Assembly (NCBI GenBank): GCA_018066285.1
Contig: JAGHRS010000004.1
Location: 1-38,430, forward strand
From: Candidatus Treponema caballi
GTDB taxonomy: Bacteria > Spirochaetota > Spirochaetia > Treponematales > Treponemataceae
Reading direction: 5' to 3'
Length of the DNA stretch: 38,430 nt
Of the stretch, positions 35,052 through 38,430 are shown one piece after another. Below the pieces are notes generated by a model, which saw nothing but the letters and a program-made list of their open reading frames with translations, was not told where the DNA came from and did no database searches. A program made the translations under genes and the position numbers. How positions within the stretch are numbered: the stretch's first letter is position 1; each line of letters opens with the position of its first letter.

Positions 35052-35083
35052 CAAAAAAGCCGCCCCCCTGACGGAAAGCGGCT
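35052..35083 (-). terminator. Terminator of the first lipoprotein gene
   Basis: On the minus strand AGCCGC and GCGGCT pair around a 14-nt loop and are followed by a T-rich run (six T, G, four T). Confidence 0.75.
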
Positions 35084-35106: not shown

Positions 35107-36027
35107 TTACTGTTTTGTGAACATTTCTGAGGTTTCAGAAGTAATCGTATATGTAGAGAGGTCTCCTTCATCCAAGATAATTGTTACGGTCTTTGGGTCA
35201 GAAGAAAAATCAGCAGTATACGAATATTCACTTCCGTAGCATGTTATTTCTGAATCTGTTGCACTGATTATAAAATCTATTAATTCATGAGATTCTTCAA
35301 AGTAGAAGGAAGGAAAAGCCCCTGTTGTAGTTGAATACAGTCCGTTTAAGAACTTTTCTGCAGTTGCTTCTGGGGGAAGTATTGAATTAAAAGTCAGCTT
35401 ATCGTCATCTAGAGTGTACTTTACGATAAGTATCTTGCGGAATTCCTTTGCAATTGGTGCAAGCAGTTCACCTTCTGCAGCTTCCGCCCAGGATATATAT
35501 GAAGTATCGTTCCAGTCATTAAAGACTTCTAAAGTTACATTTTTGTAGCTTTCATACAACTGAGCAATTTTCTGACTTATTTCAGCAGTATTACTGGTTT
35601 CCGGAGTAAAATAGAACATTTCACCTTCCTCAATTTCACCGGCACTGCACAGATACTTGTTAATAGTACCATCAGATACCTTATCTACAGTAAGATACAG
35701 TTCCTGCTTTTCTGTATTAAAGGTATAAGAAAAGACTGTTTCACTTGATTGTATACCTGTATCTCCATAAGTATCTTCATATCTGTAAGTAAAGGTAAGC
35801 TTGTCATTTCCAAATGAATAAACCCACGTCTCGTTCCATAAACTGTTATAACCGTCTTCGTATCTGCTGTACGTGTTTCCCGCAAGTTCGCAGGTGCTTG
35901 TATTAGCTGGTGTTACAGGTGTTTCAGGTACAGCAGGTGTTTCAGGTGTATCAGTTCCATTTGAATGTGGACATCCGGTAAGTGTAAAGGCAAGAAGCAG
36001 CAGAATTAAAAAATATTGTTTTTTCAT
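35107..36027 (-). CDS. Lipoprotein with putative phase-variable promoter
   Basis: 306 residues from the ATG at 36027, fixed by AAGGAGGT 6 nt upstream. A type II signal peptide ends in the lipobox TLTGC, with lipidated Cys19. A Thr/Pro linker (TPETPAVPETPVTP) follows, then an unrecognised domain of about 250 residues. Its end, ILPPEATAEKFLNG...YSYTADF, is shared with the next gene. No known family was recognised. It is exported and membrane-anchored, possibly surface-exposed. The promoter spacer contains ten G. Confidence 0.82.
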   Translation of the reverse strand: MKKQYFLILLLLAFTLTGCPHSNGTDTPETPAVPETPVTPANTSTCELAGNTYSRYEDGYNSLWNETWVYSFGNDKLTFTYRYEDTYGDTGIQSSETVFSYTFNTEKQELYLTVDKVSDGTINKYLCSAGEIEEGEMFYFTPETSNTAEISQKIAQLYESYKNVTLEVFNDWNDTSYISWAEAAEGELLAPIAKEFRKILIVKYTLDDDKLTFNSILPPEATAEKFLNGLYSTTTGAFPSFYFEESHELIDFIISATDSEITCYGSEYSYTADFSSDPKTVTIILDEGDLSTYTITSETSEMFTKQ

Positions 36028-36053: not shown

Positions 36054-36083
36054 AGTATACCCCCCCCCCGACTTCTCTGTCAC
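36054..36083 (-). promoter_or_regulatory. Promoter with G10 spacer tract (lipoprotein 1)
   Basis: On the minus strand GTGACA (36083-36078) and TATACT (36059-36054) are 18 bp apart. Ten consecutive G (36069-36060) directly precede the -10. Loss of one G would give the optimal 17 bp. The tract lies upstream of the transcription start and outside the coding region. An inverted repeat ACTAC/GTAGT lies just upstream of the -35. Confidence 0.7.
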
Positions 36084-36127
36084 TACCCGAAAGTGTAGTT
36101 TTAACAGTTTTTTTGCAGATCGGACAG

Positions 36128-36161
36128 AAAAAAAAACGCTCCACCGGAACCCAGCGGAGCG
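36128..36161 (-). terminator. Terminator of the second lipoprotein gene
   Basis: On the minus strand CGCTCC/GGAGCG pairs, followed by nine T. It begins about 27 nt after the stop of the upstream lipoprotein gene. Confidence 0.75.
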
Positions 36162-37203: not shown

Positions 37204-37233
37204 AGTATACCCTCCCCCCGATTTCTCTGTCAC
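37204..37233 (-). promoter_or_regulatory. Promoter with interrupted G tract (lipoprotein 2)
   Basis: GTGACA (37233-37228), 18-bp spacer and TATACT (37209-37204) as in copy 1, but the spacer reads GGGGGGAGGG. This is less prone to slippage. Confidence 0.65.
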
Positions 37234-37276
37234 TACCCAAAAGTGTAGTTATAACAGTTTTTTTTGCAGATCGGAC

Positions 37277-37311: not shown

Positions 37312-37435
37312 GAAAAAAGGAGGAGGAGGATGCAGAAAACTGCTGCTGACGATTGGTTCTCAGTCAATCTATATGGATAACCACATTTTCTGCATATAGT
37401 TACAGAAAAAATAAAAATTGATGGAATTTTTATTT
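37312..37435 (-). other. Structured 3' region after the DUF4097 gene
   Basis: Three inverted repeats: AAATAAAAATT/AATTTTTATTT (37409-37435, overlapping the stop codon), ATGCAGAAAA/TTTTCTGCAT (37330-37339 and 37386-37395) and CTATATG/CATATAG (37369-37375 and 37393-37399). The last two cannot form together fully. It is either an elaborate 3' UTR or a small RNA released between the first hairpin and the strong terminator. Confidence 0.4.
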
Positions 37436-38257
37436 CCTCATGATACGGATGGAACCAGAAGCCGTATCAACACGACAGACAACATATCCATAGCCATATG
37501 TGTCTACGCCTGATCTGCCCCCGGTATAGCCTGTAAATGCATTATAAACAGAACCTGACGCTGTATCAAAAACAAACTTGAAGCCAGGATTCTCAGGTAA
37601 TGTAATATTGACAGCTCCACTTGCAGTATCGAAATTGCAGTCCTGTGTCAGAGGCCTGTCAAAAGAAGCCGTAATTGAACCAGATGAAGTATCTGCATTC
37701 ATACCGCCTGCAATACCATCAAATCTGATGCTGCCCGAAGTTGCCTCTGCATTAAGCAGATTTGAGAAGATACACTGTGAACAGTTTATTGAGCCAGAAC
37801 TGCTGCTGATATAAGCAAGCTGAGCTTCACACTTTGTAAGTCCTATAGAACCGCTTGTTGTTTCGATTTCAATGATATCGCCCCAAAGTTTTGAAGCATA
37901 GACGGACCCTGATGTCGTAGAGATATACCAGCCGCCATAGGCAGATTTTGCATAAAAAGACTCCGGTACCTTGATTTCAATCTTGCATATGGAACCTGTT
38001 CCCTCACTGGAAAGGATACCGTTTGAAAGCTCGAATACAGGATAACTGTTAGTTGAAGAAATAACGGTTACACGAAACTCATTTCTGTTCCACAGAGCAA
38101 TCTCAATATCTTCAGAATTGACATCAATATTCACGCCATAGACTTCAGATACCGGAATGAACCTTTGGAACTTGATGTCGCTCCCCGCAAAAAGAGCGCC
38201 TGTTCCTACTGCAAGGAAAAGGGCAACTGTCAGTATTTTCTTCATTGATAAACGCAT
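37430..38257 (-). CDS. DUF4097-like exported beta-repeat protein
   Basis: 275 residues from the ATG at 38257 (GGGGAG 9 nt upstream); a second Met four codons later begins the core signal peptide. The signal peptide MKKILTVALFLAVGTGALFA is cleaved by signal peptidase I (no lipobox). The mature part carries eight repeats of the type T-[TSA]-SGS-[IV] (STTSGSVY, ETTSGSIG, SSSSGSIN, EATSGSIR, DTSSGSIT, DTASGAVN, DTASGSVY, DTASGSIR), each a turn of a right-handed beta-helix as in DUF4097/DUF4098 putative adhesins. Periplasmic or surface location is likely; ligand unknown. Confidence 0.82.
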   Translation of the reverse strand: MRLSMKKILTVALFLAVGTGALFAGSDIKFQRFIPVSEVYGVNIDVNSEDIEIALWNRNEFRVTVISSTNSYPVFELSNGILSSEGTGSICKIEIKVPESFYAKSAYGGWYISTTSGSVYASKLWGDIIEIETTSGSIGLTKCEAQLAYISSSSGSINCSQCIFSNLLNAEATSGSIRFDGIAGGMNADTSSGSITASFDRPLTQDCNFDTASGAVNITLPENPGFKFVFDTASGSVYNAFTGYTGGRSGVDTYGYGYVVCRVDTASGSIRIMRK

Positions 38258-38430
38258 AAAACTAATCTCCCCATATAGTGTCATCGTAAATGAAACACCC
38301 TGATAAGCGCAAGATGTCACCATCAAAGTAACTTCTCACTAAAAAAAACGCTTAATATTACACAAATCAGTACAAAAATGAGACTTTATCGTTTTCGTTG
38401 CTTTTTCACTGATAGTAGGTTATATATGAT

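Follow-up and report, generated by a model that had tools for sequence, protein, structure and literature searches.

The window analysed here is the entire 38,430-bp contig C41 of the Candidatus Treponema caballi genome (75 contigs, 2,909,601 bp), and it carries on its minus strand two tandem genes for predicted lipoproteins of 306 and 329 aa (Table 1). In minus-strand order, the 306-aa gene is preceded by GTGACA, GAGAAGTC, ten G, TATACT, and AAGGAGG, with the ATG at 36027; these elements make up a predicted promoter with an 18-bp spacer (hereafter the G10 promoter) and a ribosome-binding site. The paralogous 329-aa gene adjoins the 306-aa gene on its upstream side, and its promoter matches the G10 promoter in hexamers and 18-bp spacing, with a tract of 10 positions, GGGGGGAGGG, that includes one A. 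Since a terminator-like hairpin separates the tandem genes, the G10 promoter would be the 306-aa gene's own, and with a similar hairpin on the other side this gene looks monocistronic. Upstream of the tandem pair lies a gene for a DUF4097 (toastrack) protein (37430-38326, minus strand).

Table 1. Features of the G10 promoter locus and related elements of the same genome. Positions without a contig name refer to the window.
Feature	Position	Strand	Basis or remark
Predicted lipoprotein ORF, 306 aa, lipobox LTGC	35107-36027	minus	ORF, Pfam, protein search
Terminator-like hairpin 3' of the lipoprotein gene	35058-35083	minus	terminator scan
Ribosome-binding site AAGGAGG	36041-36035	minus	sequence
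-10 hexamer TATACT	36059-36054	minus	sequence and promoter scan
G10 tract, flush 5' of the -10, within the 18-bp spacer	36060-36069	minus	sequence
18-bp spacer, GAGAAGTC plus G10	36077-36060	minus	sequence
-35 hexamer GTGACA	36083-36078	minus	sequence and promoter scan
Candidate operator ACTACACTTTCGGGTAGTG, an imperfect inverted repeat that overlaps the -35	36081-36099	minus	sequence search
Terminator-like hairpin between the tandem genes	36137-36161	minus	terminator scan
Tandem paralogous lipoprotein gene, 329 aa	36188-37177	minus	sequence comparison
Twin promoter GTGACA-18-TATACT	37204-37233	minus	sequence and promoter scan
Interrupted tract GGGGGGAGGG of the twin promoter	37210-37219	minus	sequence
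Second copy of the inverted repeat, over the twin's -35	37231-37249	minus	sequence search
Third copy of the inverted repeat	C57:21910 (L003 1505-1522)	plus	precedes a third lipoprotein gene
Lipoprotein-promoter tracts	C4:2675, C4:4926, C24:76390, C41:36060, C61:61579		

An earlier note had placed ten G directly against TATACT in the 18-bp spacer of a lipoprotein promoter, and this anatomy is confirmed with exact coordinates on the minus strand. By its layout, the promoter is of the spacer type, in which about eight or more G (or C) without interruption lie wholly between the -35 and the -10. A tprL-type promoter, in which the tract overlaps the -10 and leaves the spacing unaffected, was considered and rejected, as the tract ends before an intact TATACT. 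The two hexamers together match 10 of 12 consensus positions (five of six for GTGACA) and are not significant by themselves, a simple scan giving five promoter-like sites vs 7.6 in shuffles. The tract is the sole run of at least eight G (or C) in the window, where it accounts for three overlapping 8-mers; 100 shuffles of the window had a mean of 0.16 such 8-mers, and none of them reached three. Folding of the 32 nt that begin with the -10 and end just before the ATG was unremarkable (z 0.50), and the window had no match in Rfam.

The 306-aa protein begins with MKKQYFLILLLLAFTLTGC, in which a signal peptide and the LTGC lipobox were identified by eye. The lipobox supports the earlier description of the product as an exported lipoprotein, while the Pfam model LPAM_1 matched below its threshold (12.3 bits vs a cut-off of 20), and the protein may be exposed at the cell surface. 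Above the cut-off, Pfam gave no match for this protein, its twin, or four other lipoproteins of the genome with poly-G promoters. The 306-aa protein had no homologue in the 58 relatives searched, a protein search of the genome contigs with it found no relative, and the leader of its gene had no full-length copy outside its own genome among 274 genomes searched. AlphaFold2 gave a mean pLDDT of 37.0 for two proteins of the window. The twin proteins share 42% identity; between the genes, the leader is 94.1% identical, codons 1-28 are 96.4% identical, and the remainder is 65.4% identical with many gaps. That the 5' ends are nearly identical while the bodies have diverged points to gene conversion or to a cassette of promoter and signal peptide common to both genes. 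The interrupted tract of the twin is a natural comparison, as it is expected to slip less; that the layout also occurs in such a presumably stable version counts against switching.

Genome-wide, there are 11 tracts of at least nine G (14 overlapping 9-mers), which is about the number expected from base composition by a rough hand estimate; it is not their abundance but their placement that is remarkable. Five of the 11 lie flush 5' of the -10 in TTGACA or GTGACA promoters of lipoprotein genes (Table 1), two lie within coding sequence, and four in a repeat or without assignment. The pattern TGACA-N2-14-G6-TA has six matches in the 2.91-Mb genome and its reversed form has none. Lipoprotein ORFs lie downstream of five of these matches, and the sixth, at C66:21444, has eight G, with the ORF chosen by rule beginning 258 bp downstream. 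The tracts at C4:2675 and C4:4926 (loci L026 and L027) belong to related lipoprotein genes that are divergent and about 2.2 kb apart, each with a promoter of its own (G9 and G10, respectively).

The same placement recurs across the family. TTGACA-N4-12-G7-TA, a pattern into which the flush position of the tract against TA is built and for which that position is no evidence of its own, was matched 292 times, in 112 of the 274 family genomes and in 12 of 20 genera, with up to 20 matches in a single genome; the reversed pattern was matched twice. The promoters read comprise 229 distinct ones from loci L026-L169 and L200-L289. By a home-made rule of hydrophobicity and lipobox, 193 of them precede ORFs for exported-looking proteins (145 with a lipobox, 48 with another signal peptide or a membrane segment). 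Nothing exported-looking by this rule lies downstream of the other 36, i.e., 31 in neither class, three too short to judge, and two without an ORF. Plain TTGACA-N16-18-TATAAT sites from six of these genomes served as control, and 12 of 32 were exported-looking (six with a lipobox, six other), which gives Fisher p values of 6e-8 for exported proteins and 2e-6 for lipoboxes, with the reservation that this control is small, consists partly of false sites, and includes sites counted in two overlapping loci. For the class as a whole, such tracts mark genes of exported proteins, in support of the earlier note.

In this class, as judged from other genomes of the family, the G tracts change length faster than their surroundings. 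Between pairs of relatives with downstream DNA at least 85% identical, the tract differs in length in 18 of 26, whereas the figure for other homopolymers of at least six, taken from the same stretches of downstream DNA, is two of 26; these differences come from assemblies rather than reads and may include homopolymer sequencing or assembly errors. The 26 pairs are not independent and form 19 clusters. By hand count, 12 of these vary in tract length, 10 of the 12 also in spacer length, and seven have no tract difference; in two more, the spacer is unchanged and a boundary base has changed instead. One exported protein is encoded by the orthologous loci L043, L048, and L050; their tracts are G15, G13, and G9, respectively, flanked in all three by the same TTGACAAAAT and TAATAT, and the spacers accordingly measure 19, 17, and 13 bp. 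Over 604 bp of downstream DNA, loci L242 and L250 show 100% identity, and their tracts are G8 and G10, respectively; as their TTGACA lies 24 and 26 bp away, another -35 may serve there.

A comparable arrangement is present in a T. pallidum-like genome of 1.1 Mb (G025), where TCGACA-9 bp-G9-TAGAAT precedes an OmpW-like ORF, with the tract flush against the -10 and 18-bp spacing as at the G10 promoter, but with TCGACA instead of GTGACA as -35. The OmpW label follows the description in the paper cited below. A second such poly-G promoter in this genome has 19-bp spacing. According to the accessible part of PMC7864442, TP0126 of T. pallidum, an OmpW homologue, is controlled by the length of a poly-G tract located between its -35 and -10, transcription is best at a distance of 17, and T. 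pallidum tract lengths vary within isolates; TP0126 is thus a precedent for the earlier claim that G tracts alter the expression of outer-membrane genes in T. pallidum. TP0126 and the G10 locus have in common the tract between -35 and -10, an exported product, and the bacterial family. They differ in that the product is a beta-barrel homologue in the one and a lipoprotein in the other, and in that length control has been tested for TP0126 and is a prediction for the G10 promoter. Variable-length poly-G tracts are also described at the promoters of the exported-protein genes tprE/G/J and tprL of T. pallidum (PMC7864442, accessible part). In the porA promoter of Neisseria meningitidis, poly-G between -10 and -35 likewise alters transcription through the spacing (PMC7864442 and PMC3639595, accessible parts), but the organism and gene are unrelated, and the promoter serves a porin instead of several lipoproteins. 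In the accessible parts of the respective papers, homopolymer tracts are counted in several treponemes without being placed in promoters (PMC8049484), and PMC3747143, PMC11868660, and PMC2831843 do not place such tracts in promoters either. Among titles and the first lines of abstracts, with subscription papers mostly outside the scope, no paper on poly-G lipoprotein promoters was found for treponemes beyond the T. pallidum group.

The best explanation for the G10 locus is, with good probability, a slipped-strand phase-variable promoter. Replication slippage would add G to the tract or remove G from it, and this would alter the spacing between -35 and -10 from the 18 bp read here to, e.g., 17 bp with nine G or 19 bp with eleven. 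The spacing would set how well a sigma-70-type RNA polymerase engages the promoter, and single cells of a clone would consequently differ in whether they make the lipoprotein, or in how much of it they make. The genome has no fewer than five lipoprotein promoters of this kind, and because each of them has a separate tract, the combination could vary from cell to cell. Slippage within a population, the effect on transcription, and the length that is ON are what we infer for this locus.

The earlier note regarded the 17 bp given by nine G as the optimum. The arithmetic stands, and the TP0126 precedent and convention speak for the optimum, but in the main family set fewer promoters have 17 bp (20 of the 229) than have 18 (54), 19 (50), or 16 (44). 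The counts for 16/17/18 bp are 30/17/46 in 174 de-duplicated family promoters, 24/13/48 in 112 poly-G promoters of other bacteria, and 15/35/23 in plain promoters (hand count among the 73 matches listed). In 40 further family promoters the dip does not recur (5/7/6), and in another spirochaete family the commonest spacer is 19 bp (31 of 66); for some of these sets, the upper limit of the search pattern was 18 or 19 bp. It may be that consensus genomes capture weak states for the most part, or else that the optimum is shifted by the G-rich spacer.

Instead of switching, the tract could be a fixed promoter element, with its length under selection and the G-rich spacer read by RNA polymerase or a regulator. 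The narrow range in which most tracts fall agrees with this (nine G in 106 of the 229, 10 in 51, eight in 40), as do three pairs of relatives that keep their total spacer despite a tract change by substitution at the boundary (L230/L244, L114/L228, and L240/L254), and the 10 positions that the twin keeps with one A. We nevertheless consider it unlikely, since tract lengths extend from seven, the floor set by the search pattern, to 17, since they differ in most close pairs and often alter the spacer, and since length variation within isolates is described for T. pallidum (PMC7864442, accessible part). The G run might, moreover, have been left by duplication and drift in an ordinary promoter, with which the unremarkable genome-wide count of long tracts and the hexamers, being no rarer than chance matches, are compatible; five of 11 tracts at lipoprotein promoters and the family-wide excess over the reversed pattern disfavour chance and make it very improbable.

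The inverted repeat over the -35 bears on a further alternative, in which the hexamers would work well enough at 16 to 19 bp for slippage just to scale expression, and control would be exerted mainly by a protein at ACTACACTTTYGGGTAGTG. This element has three copies, all before lipoprotein genes, and the one at C57:21910 has no G tract; it may be the site of a candidate regulator, in which case slippage may not be the only control. Such tuning would also fit the poly-G promoters in collections, whose spacers are spread over 15 to 19 bp, and the accessible part of PMC7864442, which describes tprL expression in vivo without a clear dependence on tract length and a CRP homologue acting jointly with the tract at tpr promoters. 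Among 557 loci examined, however, ACTACACTTTYGGGTAGTG is confined to its three lipoprotein loci, whereas the G tract is common to the class, and we give this alternative slightly less weight than a fixed element.

If slipped-strand switching applies beyond the G10 promoter, the family might run a combinatorial lipoprotein switchboard, in which a genome would have as many as 20 poly-G promoters that slip independently and control a different small lipoprotein or exported protein apiece. Most of these loci would rest a single slip away from the optimum, and 17-bp spacers would for that reason be under-represented in consensus genomes. We offer this tentatively, as possible but not as our expectation. 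The mechanism is ordinary and its extent unusual, and the candidate lipoprotein switches across the family are the part that deserves attention. Among treponemes, work on poly-G promoter switching has dealt with the syphilis agent, a bacterium difficult to grow; with a shared layout at lipoprotein genes across the family, the switch, the ON length, and the rates could be measured in other members, and the family set would supply candidates for surface proteins that may be targets of host immunity or phages.

Outside the family, 70 of 392 genomes in a sample of the phylum had matches, many of them in Treponemataceae and one other family of the class (f13). With one genome per species, TTGACA-N5-10-G8-TATAAT matched at least 120 stretches, mostly of Clostridia and Bacilli and many from animal guts, and the poly-G spacer layout is thus not unique to spirochaetes. 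Among the matches listed (127), 79 lie in front of an ORF that looks exported (a lipoprotein in 25, another type in 54), 36 precede ORFs that are not exported-looking, nine are too short, and three are without an ORF. In addition, 54 stretches of a viral collection match the poly-G promoter pattern and could be phage promoters or host DNA.
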